DNA of 53,922 nucleotides from Rhodococcus marinonascens NBRC 14363 (GTDB lineage: Bacteria > Actinomycetota > Actinomycetes > Mycobacteriales > Mycobacteriaceae): NCBI RefSeq assembly GCF_001894885.1, contig NZ_BCXB01000029.1, forward strand, positions 1 through 53,922, written 5' to 3'. Shown piece after piece: positions 2,691 to 53,605 of this stretch. The translations under genes and the position numbers were made by a program. Numbering within the stretch: the stretch's first letter is position 1; the number at the start of each line of letters is the position of its first letter. The notes beneath the pieces were generated by a model. It searched no databases. It had not been told where the DNA came from and saw only the letters and a program-made list of their open reading frames with translations.

Positions 2691-3892
2691 GCGAAGGCAC
2701 CGCAGGTTCGGTACTGGTCCTCAACTCAGGTTCGTCCTCGATCAAGTTCCAGTTGATCCATCCGGAGACGGGCGAGTCGTCGGCTTCCGGTCTCATCGAA
2801 CGAATCGGCGAACCGGACGGTCGCATCGTGTACCGCCATTGCGGTGGCGTGGAGGAACGGAAGGTAGCCATTCCCGACCACCGCGTCGGACTGACGATGG
2901 CGGCGGACATCGTCGCCGAGGTCGGCCGTCCGTTGAGCGAAGTGGGCATCCTCGCCGTCGGACACCGCCTCGTCCACGGCGGCGATGTGTTCTACGAACC
3001 CACGGTCATTGATGACGAAGTGGTGCAATCTATTTCAAACTTGTCTTCCCTCGCACCGCTCCACAACCCTGCCAATGTGATCGGTATCGAGGTGGCGCGG
3101 GCGGCGCTGCCCGACATCCCGCACGTTGGTGTGTTCGACACCGCGTTCTTCCATACTCTCCCCGCCGAAGCAGCCACCTATGCCATCGATCGGGAGGTGG
3201 CGAAGGAACACGGCATCCGGCGGTACGGCTTCCACGGCACCTCGCATCAGTTCGTGTCGGCCCGGGCGGCAGAATTCCTCGGCAAAGACCTCTCGGAACT
3301 GAACCAGATCGTGCTGCACCTGGGCAACGGCGCCTCGGCATCCGCGATCCGCGGTGGTCGGGCGATCGACACGAGCATGGGCCTCACACCGCTGGAGGGA
3401 CTTGTCATGGGTACGAGGTGCGGCGACATCGATCCCGGGGTCGTACTGCACCTCCACCGGAGCGCCGGAATGGGGATCGGTCAGATCGACGACCTCCTGA
3501 ACCGGCATTCCGGCCTGAAGGGTTTGTCGGGAGTCAACGACTTTCGGGCGCTGCTGACGCTCGTCGGTGAGGGGGACGAGCGCGCCGCGCTGGCCTACGA
3601 CGTGTACATTCACCGCCTACGCAAGTACATCGGTGCCTATCTCGTCGAACTGGGCGGCGTCGACGTGATCACGTTCACCGCGGGAGTAGGCGAGAACAAC
3701 GCAGATGTACGGCGCGACAGTCTGGCTGGGCTGGGGCGCCTCGGCATCGTCGTAGACGACGAGCGCAACTGCGCGGATTCTCATGCGCCCCGGCGTATCT
3801 CGGCGGACAACTCCGGGGTCCAGGTGCTGGTTGTGCCTACCGACGAGGAATTGGCGATTGCCCGAGCCGCAGCTGAGTTGGTCGGGGGCTGA
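2687..3892 (+). CDS. ackA: Acetate kinase
   Basis: Transfers phosphate between acetyl phosphate and ADP to give acetate and ATP. The 401 residues carry all the expected ASKHA-fold signatures: [15 protein letters not shown] at the N-terminus, [46 protein letters not shown] and FTAGVGENN. The length is normal for the family. Translation starts at a GTG inside the pta stop codon. The last 15 codons (ending [14 protein letters not shown]) recur, diverged, at 10225-10269 on the far side of the island that follows. This 3' end may therefore have been supplied by the inserted DNA, but the enzyme looks intact. Confidence 0.96.
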
Positions 3893-5963: not shown

Positions 5964-6383
5964 ATGACCTTCCACGAGAGCCGCAGCACCTACAACACCA
6001 GATCCTGCACCTGTGGTAAGGACCACGACAGACTCGAACACATCACTGCTGCAGTGCTTTTCTGCGCGGGACAGGACTTCGTCGAAAAGGGCATCTACTA
6101 CCAGCCGATCGAACTGGGTGACGCGGTGGCCGAAGCGGCAACCCGGGTGGGCTGGCGATACAGTCCGGCCAGGATCACGTCCGACCTGAACGAGAAGTAC
6201 CGCGATTGTCCGCGCGGACTGGTCCACAGCACTCTGCAATCCATTGTTTCTGCCGCTCTTTCCGCAGCGTTCGAGGAAGCCCGCGACGACGGCGAGGTCA
6301 CGAACGACGTGGTCGCACTCATGGTGGCCAAGGCGGCAGCCGAATCCGGGTGGTTCAAGACCGGATCACCCAATTCGAACTAG
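5964..6383 (+). CDS. Hypothetical protein, island
   Basis: From the ATG at 5964, preceded by AAGGAG about eight bases upstream, this gives 139 residues. An upstream in-frame TTG at 5949 overlaps the previous stop and is less likely. Near the N-terminus is SCTCGKDHDRLEH, a Cys-x-Cys plus His cluster that could bind metal, followed by helices (AAVLFCAGQDFVEKGIYYQP; DAVAEAATRVGW). The C-terminal half is mainly helical. No family recognised. Operon context links it to the downstream lysis genes. Confidence 0.65.
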   Translation: MTFHESRSTYNTRSCTCGKDHDRLEHITAAVLFCAGQDFVEKGIYYQPIELGDAVAEAATRVGWRYSPARITSDLNEKYRDCPRGLVHSTLQSIVSAALSAAFEEARDDGEVTNDVVALMVAKAAAESGWFKTGSPNSN

Positions 6384-6447
6384 ACCGGAATGCGCAGTGC
6401 TCCAACGTTGGGTGGGCCGGTGATCAAGGCCAGCATACAAGGGATGC

Positions 6448-48200: not shown

Positions 48201-48749
48201 ATGCTCGCTGTCTCCGCGCCCGCCGCCTCGGCAACTCGTACTCGCACCTCCTCACTGTTCGACCGGCGGCTTGTGCGTGCGGGAGCAGCAATGGCAGTGG
48301 GCCTCGGCATTGCGGCGGGAATCTCGGTTGCCGGTGGAGGCGTCGCCGCGGCCGCCCCAGTCATGTGCGTCTCCCCGCCATCCGACAACGACATCCAGGT
48401 GTCGGACACCGCCAGTTGCGGAGCCATGGCGAACGACGGCGGTCTCTCGCGTGCGTCGGCGATGGAAAGTGGTACGGCGGTGAGCGTTGCCAACGGTGAG
48501 GGTTCCTCCACCACCACCTACGCAAACGGCTTCGGAACCTCGCTCGGCACCTCGACGGGTTCGGGCCAGGCGTACGCGATCTCACTCGGCGGCGGCATCG
48601 CTCGTTCCGCTGCGAACGACGGCGCAACCACCGTCGCGATCGCCGGCTGGGGTTCTGGTGCGACAGTCGACTCCACTGGCGTCGACTGTGTCGGCGCGCT
48701 GTCTCTCGCATTCAATCTGAACACCGGTCAGTTCTGCGCGATGCGCTGA
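48201..48749 (+). CDS. Secreted small protein with four cysteines
   Basis: 182 residues from an ATG with AGAAGGAG upstream. A long twin-basic N-terminus (TRTSSLFDRRLVRAGAAM) leads into a signal peptide (AVGLGIAAGISVAGGGVAAA, cleavage near AAAAP). The mature part is rich in Gly, Ser, Ala and Thr with alternating beta-like sequence (TYANGFGTSLGTSTGSGQAY) and has four Cys, enough for two disulfides. It resembles Rhodococcus/Nocardia secreted proteins of unknown function. The gene precedes groEL2. Confidence 0.78.
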   Translation: MLAVSAPAASATRTRTSSLFDRRLVRAGAAMAVGLGIAAGISVAGGGVAAAAPVMCVSPPSDNDIQVSDTASCGAMANDGGLSRASAMESGTAVSVANGEGSSTTTYANGFGTSLGTSTGSGQAYAISLGGGIARSAANDGATTVAIAGWGSGATVDSTGVDCVGALSLAFNLNTGQFCAMR

Positions 48750-50603
<1,854 letters not shown>

Positions 50604-50680
50604 AGGCGGTTGCGCCTCCTGTGAGCGGCTGAGGAGTCCACGGACTCCCTCACCACGCACAGGCCCGAAGTGCCCGAAGA

Positions 50681-50714
50681 GGCCCGGGACACCTCATGGT
50701 GTCCCGGGCCTTTT
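50681..50714 (+). terminator. Rho-independent terminator of groEL2
   Basis: GGCCCGGGACACC pairs perfectly with GGTGTCCCGGGCC around TCAT, followed by TTTT. It separates groEL2 from the peptide cassettes, so these need their own promoters. Confidence 0.92.
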
Positions 50715-50792
50715 CTTGTGTCTGAACTCGACTTCTGCTCATTTTGTTCAGTTGCTCAACTCATTTTCTCGTTCTGGTCACATGCCGACAAA

Positions 50793-50897: not shown

Positions 50898-51381
50898 GTG
50901 AGTTACAGGCAAGAGCGGCGCAACGCGCACTGGACGGCGTTGGTAGCTCTGTCATCTGCTTCAGCGAAGGCTGTGCGACTACCGTGAAGACGGTCGAGGA
51001 GAAGGGCCTACGTTCCTGGCGAGGGCGTGGCGACCGATCGTCGATGCCGGGTCCATCGATGTCGAGTTCGGGGCGTCAATGCTGAGTCTCGCAATCGCGA
51101 ACCCGTCGCTGAATCAGGGGATCGGAGCCAGCGTGGGGAACATCTGTGGTCCAGTCGGAGGCCTCGGCCGTGCCGAGAACGACCCGTTGGGCCACGGCGA
51201 GAAGCTTGCTAGTACAATCATGTTCATCTCATTCGACCCGGGACTTCCTGGCGGGCAGGGCATTCTGAATGCGCGGTCGATCGGCCGTGGGCCGGCACTG
51301 CCGGAGGATCAGGTGGGCAACGGGGAAGACCCACACGAATCGTCGCCGCGTCCTCGCCGTATCGATTGGGCTACGGATTGA
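50898..51381 (+). pseudogene. Probable remnant of a secreted-protein gene
   Basis: A GTG at 50898 opens a 29-residue frame (VSYRQERRNAHWTALVALSS) that looks like the start of a signal peptide but soon stops. In another frame the stretch from about 51053 reads SIDVEFGASMLSLAIANPSL and NQGIGASVGNICGPVGGLGR, a believable exported-protein sequence, before decaying into Pro/Arg-rich sequence. Together they look like a gene broken by frameshifts. A real 100-residue frame from the ATG at 51079 cannot be excluded. Function unknown. Confidence 0.4.
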
Positions 51382-51625: not shown

Positions 51626-51703
51626 ATGGGAAGCACCACCATCACCGAGGTCATTGAATTCATCTTCGGTCAGCTCAGTGGTTCTGTGGACCAATTCAGC
51701 TGA
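51626..51703 (+). CDS. Cassette 1 peptide a (25 residues), PorH/PorA-like candidate
   Basis: An ATG preceded by AGGAGG encodes 25 residues starting MGSTTITEVIEFIFGQL and ending QFS. There is no signal peptide. Charges are Glu/Glu/Asp against none positive, with hydrophobic residues spaced for an amphipathic helix (VIEFIFGQL). The same pattern, MGS...F(I/V)F..L...F(F)S, is found in peptides at 52189 and 53100. Translation is supported by conservation of start, length, ribosome site and stop context among three copies, while the surrounding DNA has drifted. A channel-forming role is inferred from the groEL2-linked PorH/PorA of corynebacteria. Confidence 0.75.
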   Translation: MGSTTITEVIEFIFGQLSGSVDQFS

Positions 51704-51714
51704 TCGAACCGCTT

Positions 51715-51729
51715 CCCGGCGCTGCCGGG
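51715..51729 (+). other. Hairpin between peptides a and b, cassette 1
   Basis: CCCGGC-GCT-GCCGGG is a perfect six-base stem. Related but imperfect hairpins occur at the same place in cassettes 2 (about 52275-52290) and 3 (about 53183-53197). Without a T run it is not a standard terminator; it may stabilise or partly attenuate the mRNA between the two peptides. Confidence 0.5.
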
Positions 51730-51779
51730 ATGCACGTTTGACGAACTGGCGCACCTGCGTCCAAATGATGGAGGAAACA

Positions 51780-51881
51780 ATGGGAAGCTTGGCTGGCGGC
51801 ATCACCGCGATTTCATCAGTTTTTGAGGCGATCTTCGGGCTCGGAGGCGTGATTATCGCGGGGTCGATGGAGGACTCCTGA
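51780..51881 (+). CDS. Cassette 1 peptide b (33 residues), PorH/PorA-like candidate
   Basis: An ATG preceded by GGAGG encodes 33 residues: MGSLAGGITAISSVFEAIFG, then a hydrophobic LGGVIIAG and the end SMEDS. Peptide b differs from the other two b peptides in its acidic end; those finish SSL or GSL. The hydrophobic middle is long enough to cross or line a membrane as a helix. 76 bp separate it from peptide a, with a small hairpin between. Co-transcription with peptide a is likely. Confidence 0.72.
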   Translation: MGSLAGGITAISSVFEAIFGLGGVIIAGSMEDS

Positions 51882-52188
51882 CGAGCCGATAGACCTCGAC
51901 TCGGCCGTGGTGGTGGACTTGTTTCAGGGCCACAGCAGAGTTGATCGCTTCGGCTGTTTCAGTGTCATGCCGGCATCACTGTAGACGCTGGTGTCAGCCG
52001 AACGAGATTGAATCGGCGGGGCGGGATGATAGCGCTCCTGCCTTGCCGATGATCATCCTTGGTGTGGCATAGGTCGGAAACTGCTGTAAAACAGTGGTTT
52101 TCGATCCATTGGCACACACCGCAGAAGGCGCGAACACGGCAATGGATACATGAATTCCGTTGCTGAAGATCAATCAATAGGAGGATAC
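51882..52188 (+). other. Spacer and leader of cassette 2, with pspC 3'-end remnant at 51957-51990
   Basis: No gene. 51957-51990 matches 27 of 34 bases by eye with the 3' end of the pspC-like gene (53397-53430), including CTGCCGGCATCA-type sequence. Around 52046-52110 the DNA resembles 52766-52830 before cassette 3, showing that the spacer was duplicated with the peptides. GAATTCCGTTGCTG before peptide a also occurs before cassette 1. Confidence 0.6.
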
Positions 52189-52263
52189 ATGGGAAGCTTG
52201 ACATCCGATCTCGTCACGTTCATCTTCGGGAGCCTCGAAGATTTCACGGTGTTCTTCAGCTGA
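52189..52263 (+). CDS. Cassette 2 peptide a (24 residues), PorH/PorA-like candidate
   Basis: An ATG with TAGGAGG seven bases upstream encodes MGSLTSDLVTFIFGSLED and ends VFFS. It shares with the cassette 1 and 3 copies the MGS start, a phenylalanine-rich amphipathic core and the FS end followed by TGATC. It is acidic (two Asp, one Glu, no basic residues) and has no signal peptide. Confidence 0.75.
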   Translation: MGSLTSDLVTFIFGSLEDFTVFFS

Positions 52264-52336
52264 TCGAACTACCTTCCGGCGCCGCCGGGACGGATCTACA
52301 GACGGGCGCAGTGCGTCCAAGACCACGGAGGAAACT

Positions 52337-52426
52337 ATGGGAGACGCGGAGTCGGGAAGCATCGACGCGGGCATGTTGAAAATCGTGCTGCAAATAATGC
52401 AGGGTATCTTCACAAGCTCTCTGTGA
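52337..52426 (+). CDS. Cassette 2 peptide b (29 residues), PorH/PorA-like candidate
   Basis: An ATG preceded by GGAGG encodes MGDAESGSIDAGMLKIVLQI and ends IFTSSL. The N-terminal third is polar and acidic; the rest is a hydrophobic helix with one Lys. It has the same length and SL end as the cassette 3 copy. The leader GTGCGTCCAAGACCACGGAG resembles those before the other b peptides. Confidence 0.73.
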   Translation: MGDAESGSIDAGMLKIVLQIMQGIFTSSL

Positions 52427-52448
52427 TCCTGGCAAGCAGGTAGGGCCC

Positions 52449-52495
52449 GAAGCGCACTGTGCTCGTGGATTTTTTCCACGGCCGCAGTGCGCTTC
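52449..52495. terminator. Long hairpin after cassette 2
   Basis: GAAGCGCACTG and CGTGGA pair with TCCACG and CAGTGCGCTTC around a T-rich loop, a strong two-part stem 22 bases after the peptide b stop. A U-rich tail is weak (TTCTTGTTT six bases on), but the stem is the most stable structure in the spacer and probably ends the cassette transcript. Confidence 0.65.
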
Positions 52496-53099
52496 AGTCA
52501 TTCTTGTTTCGGTGTCTGAGTGTCTGGCCGGCATCAGCATCCACGCCGCTGGGTAGACGAGCGCGGCGGTGCCGCCCGTGACCGGTGCGCGATGACGGTC
52601 AGGGGACGGAAGAGATTGGCTTCGGTGGAGCCGAGTCGATGAAAAGACTATCGGGCACAGTTGCTGGAATCAATAGCGCATTTGTTGCCCGCTGTCTCTA
52701 ATTCGTCTCTGCCATAAGCAGAGTGACTAATTCACTGCGCGTCTGCCCATAATGCCGTTGTCGTGCCGATGATGTATTGGGTGTGGTGCTTGCAATCTGT
52801 TGCAGAAGGTGGATTTCGATCGATCTTCTTCCCTCGATCACGGGACCCCGAGAGCGGTGCCACTACCTACCCGAGCGCTGCCTCACCCTAGTGGAACTTG
52901 CAGAACGCCTTGTCGGGGGTATGCTCTCGTCGTGTTTCGATTGTGAGGTCCTCCTGCGTCCAGCATTGGGCATCGGACTCTAGATAGGCACCGGGACCAC
53001 CCGGGGAACCTGGTCATTTCAGAAAGCTGATCTAATGTATCGGAAAGTAACGGAATGTGAAGACCGCTGCTTGGAAACAACTGGCTAGCAGGAAGATTC
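52496..53099 (+). other. Spacer and leader of cassette 3, with pspC 3'-end remnant at 52517-52620
   Basis: About 600 bp without a supported gene. 52517-52620 aligns well with 53401-53505, the C-terminal coding part of the pspC-like gene, but its stop codon is lost and the match ends abruptly: a truncated duplicate. 52766-52830 resembles 52046-52110. Near 53031-53054 is a probable promoter region shared with cassette 1. A frame at 52777-52983 is Cys-rich and unconvincing. Confidence 0.6.
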
Positions 53100-53171
53100 A
53101 TGGGAAGCGTACCTGACGCACTCGCGTTCGTCTTCGATCTGCTCACAGAGACGGTGAAGTTCTTCAGCTGA
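53100..53171 (+). CDS. Cassette 3 peptide a (23 residues), PorH/PorA-like candidate
   Basis: An ATG with AGGAAG upstream encodes MGSVPDALAFVFDLLTETV, then KFFS. Compared with cassettes 1 and 2 it keeps MGS, the F(V/I)F core, a Leu-rich middle and the FFS end, and adds one Lys. The stop context AGCTGATC is the same in all three copies. No signal peptide. Confidence 0.75.
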   Translation: MGSVPDALAFVFDLLTETVKFFS

Positions 53172-53249
53172 TCAAACCACCTCTCGGCGCTATCGGGACG
53201 GACCTCTACCGAAGAGACGCACGATGCGTTCAAGTTCATGGAGAAACTG

Positions 53250-53339
53250 ATGGGAAGCGCTGATATCTCGTCCGCGATCATCTCGGGAGCGAAAGTTGTT
53301 CTGATGATCTTGTCTGGTTTTCTCGTGGGTTCTCTGTGA
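53250..53339 (+). CDS. Cassette 3 peptide b (29 residues), PorH/PorA-like candidate
   Basis: An ATG preceded by GGAGAAAC encodes MGSADISSAIISGAKVVLMI and ends FLVGSL. The hydrophobic part (VVLMILSGFLV) could span a membrane; a single Lys and a single Asp balance the charge. Same length and end as the cassette 2 copy. The next feature downstream is the convergent pspC-like gene. Confidence 0.73.
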   Translation: MGSADISSAIISGAKVVLMILSGFLVGSL

Positions 53340-53398
53340 TCCAGGCGAGCGGATAGGGTTCGACACAGCCCGTTTCAGTGCTTCTGGTTTCACGGGTT

Positions 53399-53605
53399 TC
53401 AGTGACCTGCCGGCATCAGCATCCACGCTGCCAGATAGACGAGCGCAGCGGTGCCGACCGTGACCAGCGCGGCGACGACGGTCAGCAGTCGGATGAGATT
53501 CACGTCGGCACCCACGTATTCGGCGAGGCCGCCGCAGACTCCCGCGAACATCTTCTGGTTTCCGGATCGAGTGAACTGGCGGGGAGTGTTGCTGTCGAAT
53601 GTCAT
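53399..53605 (-). CDS. PspC-domain small membrane protein
   Basis: 68 residues from the ATG at 53605 (the frame is open to 53638). After a short polar start it reads QFTRSGNQKMFAGVCGGLAE, YVGADVNLIRLLTVVAALVT, VGTAALVYLAAWMLMPAGH, a complete PspC domain with GVCGGLAEY and the hydrophobic hairpin. PspC proteins act in envelope-stress responses. Its 3' end was copied twice into the spacers of the peptide cassettes, so it belonged to the duplicated unit. Confidence 0.9.
   Translation of the reverse strand: MTFDSNTPRQFTRSGNQKMFAGVCGGLAEYVGADVNLIRLLTVVAALVTVGTAALVYLAAWMLMPAGH

Follow-up and report, generated by a model that had tools for sequence, protein, structure and literature searches.

Downstream of groEL2 in Rhodococcus marinonascens NBRC 14363, on contig NZ_BCXB01000029.1 (53,922 nt; this whole stretch is the window of our analysis, and C29 among our own contig labels), six short ATG frames of 23-33 aa form three tandem cassettes, each with one peptide of type a and one of type b. 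We consider there to be about an even chance that these frames are three copies of a conserved two-gene cassette whose products, likely leaderless mycomembrane peptides, are O-mycoloylated by a MytC/Cmt1-type enzyme and form a+b channels like those of PorH and PorA. The frames, their pairing, an excess of synonymous change, the tandem repetition, and the groEL2 site were read in the DNA itself, as were, in relatives, an adjacent MytC-type gene and, in genome G023, PPK2. The original prediction had placed six frames here in three a/b pairs, and all were located by reading of open reading frames (ORFs), each with a purine-rich ribosome site directly 5' of its ATG. The peptide features that it described were likewise present: all three a peptides start with MGS, carry F(I/V)F inside, and end in FS, while b2 and b3 each have 29 residues and an SL end.

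Between positions 50604 and 53398, six frames of 20-40 aa with a ribosome-binding site and an ATGGG start were observed, compared to a mean of 0.048 and a maximum of 1 in 500 dinucleotide-preserving shuffles, the frame filter having been chosen after the data were seen. Models built from eight a rows and nine b rows of five genomes were then used to search 301 genomes of the family. At a threshold of E<=1e-3, which discarded weaker matches that fell mostly inside long frames, each model matched 17 of the 301 genomes, 16 of them common to both; in G083 and G039 only one model reached this threshold, and the adjacent partner scored E 0.38 and 0.0125, respectively. Pairs of a and b were thus present in 18 of the 301 genomes, across five genera, and 13 of these 18 carriers lay outside model building. 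The b frame was on the same strand, downstream of a, with a gap of 46-114 nt in 18 pairs, and the usual sizes among members were 25 aa (a) and 30 aa (b). Over the 11 closer equal-length pairs, synonymous change (pS) was 0.40 and nonsynonymous change (pN) 0.15, a ratio of 0.37 (Fisher p 1e-13, with sites treated as independent), and changes at codon positions 1, 2, and 3 numbered 61, 28, and 93. The synonymous bias was missing in one (G124a/G139a) of the nine pairs printed singly from these 11, and the coding signal was weaker across all equal-length pairs (pN/pS 0.54 for a and 0.51 for b), which are near saturation. Conserved frames with synonymous-biased change in related groEL2 loci, proposed earlier as evidence of coding, were searched for and found, and the opposite outcome, a lack of conservation, was not obtained. 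Since cassettes 1 and 2 each have their own counterpart in G007, they were probably distinct before the two lineages split. Taken together, sequence comparison supports the frames as coding, paired, leaderless, and multiplied. We give hardly any credence to the view that they make no protein and are by-products of a duplicated non-coding or regulatory stretch. The three copies are indeed DNA repeats, so that likeness among them alone proves little, and G+C is 0.56 compared to 0.64 for the window; however, the frames and both peptide ends are kept in 18 genomes, and the synonymous bias, the ribosome sites, and the six frames vs. 0.05 by shuffling all argue for translation.

Residues were counted in 20 a peptides (G083 excluded) and 19 b peptides (G027, cut by a contig end, G039, and G083 excluded). 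All 20 a peptides had both Ser3 and a C-terminal Ser; among the 19 b peptides, Ser3 occurred in 18 and an SL end in 17. Basic residues were few and Cys was absent in the a and b peptides examined, whose net charge ranged from -5 to 0 (acidic or neutral). Hydrophobic moments exceeded those of shuffles (mean z of 2.3 and 1.9; single values 0.7 to 3.1), and a structure model of b1 predicted one helix spanning residues 3-32 (mean predicted local distance difference test score 78, predicted template modelling score 0.37). By sequence reading, no signal peptide was evident in the six peptides of 23-33 aa, a basic start and a cleavable hydrophobic stretch being missing. The six peptides and four further small ones were assigned to no Pfam or NCBIfam family, the scans returning a single chance row, and none of the six matched PF09203 (MspA domain) in the Pfam scan. 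A PDB sequence search with one b peptide gave no match, and no b-like peptide was matched in phage and plasmid records.

In G023, the gene order is groEL2, a MytC/Cmt1-type mycoloyltransferase (Ag85 superfamily, PF00756), a, b, and PPK2 (PF03976). Outside the window, 14 of the 17 a/b loci have a MytC-type gene no more than about 1 kb from the pair, whether upstream, downstream, or divergent; in the poorly assembled G272 it appears as two overlapping pieces. Among solved structures, the neighbouring enzyme matched Cmt1/MytC at 262 bits, PS1/MytA at 175, and Ag85A at 113. In a tree of 42 locus sequences with Cmt1, MytA, and Ag85A, the peptide-adjacent enzymes included fell on the Cmt1 side, and MytA and Ag85A joined three enzymes of another contig of this genome (C13); the Cmt1 branch was long, with a support of 91/83 for its join. 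By these comparisons the peptide-adjacent enzyme appears closer to Cmt1 than to MytA or Ag85. The cited passages report that mycoloylation of PorA, PorH, and ProtX requires MytC (PMC5310785) and that MytC mycoloylates PorA in vitro and MytA does not (PMC11927696).

This neighbour also bears on two functions that the original prediction offered as alternatives, neither of which gained support. Two short amphipathic peptides encoded together might be a two-peptide bacteriocin or surfactant-like peptides released against competitors. We consider this improbable, as the peptides are acidic or neutral and carry no leader, phage and plasmid records gave no match to a b-like peptide, reading by eye of the ORFs beside the pairs revealed no immunity or exporter gene (no profile search was made for such genes), and the MytC-type neighbour would be left unexplained. 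More improbable still are small membrane toxins, either as in type I toxin-antitoxin systems or as a toxin paired with its antidote. The repeated cassettes of small hydrophobic peptides might suggest them, but there was no antisense RNA candidate and no Rfam family above threshold, each unit encodes two conserved peptides, and the pairs adjoin a single chromosomal enzyme type at 14 of 17 loci, which differs from a mobile toxin system.

An upstream groEL2 was present within the fetched stretch in 12 of the 18 carriers, the window included, mostly within 3.2 kb and at 7.8 kb in G002; none was nearby in the fetched stretches of G124, G105, G083, G039, and G027, and that of G085 was cut by a contig end. 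G124 and G105 have no groEL2 in the fetched 19.5 kb, yet keep a MytC-type gene beside a/b, which weakens groEL2 as a constant neighbour. PPK2 is not on the window contig, and a PPK2 remnant lies on a second contig of the same genome, C24. In G007 the region is on one contig, which C29 matches up to position 2257 and C24 from 2289 (locus L227, reversed), and the C24 array is syntenic with the continuation of the window locus there; at the contig break, C29 and C24 have about 0.2 kb and 1.1 kb, respectively, without a match in G007. On C24 (locus L251, 1421-12803) we observed MytC-type genes in an array, some of them fragments and one carrying an inner TAA; between them are tiny leaderless peptides at 3828 (29 aa), 8575 (34 aa), 10064 (25 aa), and 11547 (21 aa), with the PPK2 remnant at 6213-6390. 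On the reverse strand of L227, G007 holds two a/b pairs and further peptides of 21-33 aa, many of them SGS/GSG-rich, among four MytC-type genes in about 8 kb.

All steps that would follow translation are inferred, that of pore formation being the weakest. Peptides a and b would be made from one transcript and would leave the cell without a cleaved signal, by the same route as PorA and PorH. The MytC-type enzyme may then O-mycoloylate a conserved Ser, the candidates being Ser3, the Ser at the C-terminus of a, and the one in the SL end of b, and helix bundles of a and b could oligomerise into a small hetero-oligomeric channel within the mycomembrane. Cassettes 1 and 2 each have their own counterpart in G007, so the pores would differ where the cassettes do. 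As the copy beside a1 has decayed, the enzyme acting in this genome would be one encoded at another site.

That decay of the window's own MytC-type copy, between groEL2 and a1, is one of several points that weigh against the proposal. With 23-33 residues, a helix may not be long enough to span a rhodococcal mycomembrane, and a mycoloylated peptide without a pore would leave the same genomic signature. The fetched stretches of G027, G083, and G039 contain no MytC-type gene, and contigs C40, C28, C49, C46, and C13 of this genome carry MytC-type or related genes or paralogues with no filter-passing peptide nearby. Within the window's genus, 21 of 28 genomes have no a/b matches at E<=1e-3 (carriers, 7 of 28). 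Homology to PorH/PorA was not detected by hhalign (probabilities of 0.6, 0.3, 13, and 1.2%), a comparison of low power; PorH and PorA queries found little in 13 genomes of a Corynebacterium-like genus (g3), where the best PorH match, a weak one in G111 (E 0.0066), lies within the groEL2-PPK2 interval. Three MspA-type porins are encoded elsewhere in this genome and MspA-type genes occur in 8 of 8 carriers checked, so that a further porin is not required; their presence in all eight carriers included also led us to reject a/b as a replacement of MspA porins.

Several of these points would suit mycoloylated surface peptides that form no channel, i.e., lipid-anchored peptides with a structural or regulatory role in the mycomembrane that, like ProtX, are substrates of a MytC-type enzyme. 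The MytC-type neighbourhood, the Cmt1 match, and the tree fit them equally, the peptides are very short, the genome already has its three MspA porins, and ProtX, described in the cited passages as a mycoloylated small protein of unknown function (PMC5310785), is a precedent. We nevertheless regard this alternative as rather unlikely, though far from negligible, since strict pairing of two peptides at the groEL2-PPK2 site corresponds to the two-component channel of PorH and PorA (PMC3792995, PMC12632848).

The layout of the window is given in Table 1. The predicted terminator after groEL2 suggests that the cassettes are transcribed apart from it. All three cassettes can be aligned from upstream of a to past b. 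Copies of the 3' end of the pspC-like gene follow b2 (79% over 138 nt) and b1 (a fragment of 23 nt), which makes it likely that the array grew through tandem duplication of a unit comprising a, b, and the pspC end. A predicted GGCG...CCGG hairpin directly follows each a stop, with a similar sequence in G007 and G023 and different hairpins or none 3' of the a stop in other relatives; it could set the a:b ratio. A promoter scan found 1 promoter vs. 1.3 expected, and an Rfam scan gave three matches, all far under family thresholds. Just upstream of groEL2, at 48201-48749, there is a 182-aa ORF with a signal-peptide-like start.

Table 1. Positions of the a/b cassettes and neighbouring features in the window.
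Feature	Position	Strand	Remarks
groEL2, 541 aa	48978..50603	+	94-96% identity to groEL2 of named Rhodococcoides, Aldersonia, Antrihabitans
Predicted terminator after groEL2	50676..50715	+	18-pair stem, T-rich tail
Decayed remnant of MytC/Cmt1-type gene	50910..51315	+	Two pieces in different frames, inner deletions; 80% over 15 aa, 41% over 148 columns
a1	51626..51703	+	25 aa; a-model match; counterpart a1 in G007
Predicted hairpin between a1 and b1	51714..51730	+	Hairpin prediction
b1	51780..51881	+	33 aa; b-model match; predicted single helix, residues 3-32
a2	52189..52263	+	24 aa; a-model match; counterpart in G007
Predicted hairpin between a2 and b2	52272..52293	+	Hairpin prediction
b2	52337..52426	+	29 aa; b-model match; counterpart in G007
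Duplicated 3' end of pspC-like gene	52490..52625	.	79% to 53371-53508; probable leftover of cassette duplication
a3	53100..53171	+	23 aa; a-model match
Predicted hairpin between a3 and b3	53180..53201	+	Hairpin prediction
b3	53250..53339	+	29 aa counted from MGS start; alternative ATG four codons upstream; b-model match
PspC-domain protein, 79 aa	53399..53638	-	Neighbour, outside cassette; PF04024, E 1.3e-21

Tiny ORFs near MytC-type genes were also counted more widely, in a search of 121 genomes, at the loci of the 29 best-matching ones besides the window's and with a filter set post hoc. At least one candidate was present in 15 of the 29 loci, with 26 in 112 kb near MytC-type genes compared to 17 in 1321 kb at 80 named actinobacterial groEL loci away from such genes (Poisson 9e-24), a background taxonomically wider than the test loci, so that these densities are guides, not proofs. 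With the nine a/b-carrier loci removed, 8 tiny ORFs remained in 78 kb (1e-5). Among carriers and some relatives, 53 occurred in 135 kb near MytC-type genes vs. 20 in 326 kb far from them; among these 20 are six a/b peptides and six others (L235, L237) of similar appearance. When the filter was loosened, the groEL2-PPK2 stretches of G111 and G029, small genomes of the Corynebacterium-like genus g3, yielded three peptides (43-52 aa) and one (62 aa), respectively; neither stretch contains a MytC-type gene.

Other small peptides were seen at such loci. A third type (MGSI...ELY/EVF..., 21-28 aa) lies near MytC-type genes in four genomes, at L215 (9101), L229 (2320), L228 (2934), and L128 (about 210 nt after groEL2). 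In genus g47, a pair of 45-63 aa and 48 aa is found just upstream of a MytC-type gene (L279, 664 and 983; L285, 730 and 1014), the 48-aa peptide being known from Hoyosella as a hypothetical protein. Dietzia natronolimnaea has two tandem pairs (47 aa and 52-53 aa) between groEL2 and a MytC-like gene (L060, 9927-11098), and G011 has two (63 aa and 41-48 aa) beside PPK2, downstream of groEL2 (L237, 9078-9930). Homologue searches with the longer peptides returned nine proteins for the Dietzia 53-aa and three for the Hoyosella 48-aa peptide, the named ones hypothetical.

The locus bears on the question of how widely protein mycoloylation and PorH/PorA-like pores occur outside Corynebacterium. A 2017 paper notes mytC orthologues in Nocardia, Gordonia, and Rhodococcus, some of which did not function in C. 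glutamicum, and no demonstration that the pathway is conserved in other genera (PMC5310785). Among the titles and abstract openings of the non-subscription papers searched, we found no account of PorH/PorA-like peptides or MytC-linked micro-genes in Rhodococcus. Since gene neighbourhood names candidate substrates and enzyme together at this locus, the question becomes directly testable, and the locus points to a whole gene class that is unnamed in Pfam and NCBIfam. We tentatively propose that Rhodococcus and its kin may run a modular mycolate-peptide system, in which mycoloyltransferase genes travel with their own leaderless substrates of ~21-63 aa, arrayed and diversified beside groEL2/PPK2 and including the shortest gene-encoded porin subunits known. 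If so, protein mycoloylation would be a widespread, expandable surface-building code outside Corynebacterium, and if the pore exists, the size limit of a gene-encoded pore subunit would be lowered from 37 aa (PMC5944148).

Among known channels, those of R. ruber and R. corynebacteroides are reported as MspA-type (PF09203; PMC9233653). They are mycomembrane channels of the same group, encoded by two neighbouring genes in R. ruber (PMC9233653); however, they are far larger (genes of 540-702 bp, with a signal peptide) and unrelated to a/b. The closer likeness is to PorH/PorA, for which the cited passages describe a porH-porA pair flanked by GroEL2 and PPK2 in Corynebacterium (PMC3792995, PMC5944148), proteins without signal peptides (PMC11927696), and MytC-dependent mycoloylation of PorH S56, within a C-terminal NFSS, and PorA S15, the PorA mycolate being needed for channel activity (PMC5310785). 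The present cassettes similarly comprise two adjacent genes for tiny, leaderless, predicted-helical peptides downstream of groEL2, with PPK2 beyond in G023, and the C-terminal Ser or FS end of a resembles the NFSS end of PorH. They differ in size (as a rule 25 and 30 aa vs. 57 and 45 aa), in sequence, where no similarity was detected, in their three tandem pairs, and in the MytC-type gene that adjoins the pair in most relatives but is absent between groEL2 and PPK2 in G111 and G029. Shorter known channels are PorACur of C. urealyticum (37 aa) and PorACj of C. jeikeium (40 aa), very short leaderless peptides like a and b, which are encoded in those species between GroEL2 and PPK2 (PMC5944148, PMC3792995). 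A single peptide forms the channel there, whereas here the pair is conserved and shorter still, its 23-33 aa lying below any PorH/PorA-type case (37-57 aa) named in the cited passages. Of the earlier idea of a multiplied, shorter PorH/PorA-like pair, the coding, paired, leaderless, and multiplied nature and the groEL2 locus (groEL2-PPK2 in G023) are supported, and the place in the mycomembrane, the mycolate, and the pore are predictions. Judged from gene arrangement, the pairs are likely an ultra-short, multiplied form of the PorH/PorA kind, genetically tied to a protein mycoloyltransferase. In this last respect they recall ProtX and MytC/Cmt1, as gene neighbourhood suggests a relation of substrate to enzyme and the enzyme's best solved match is Cmt1. 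The MytC gene of C. glutamicum itself presumably lies apart from porH/porA.

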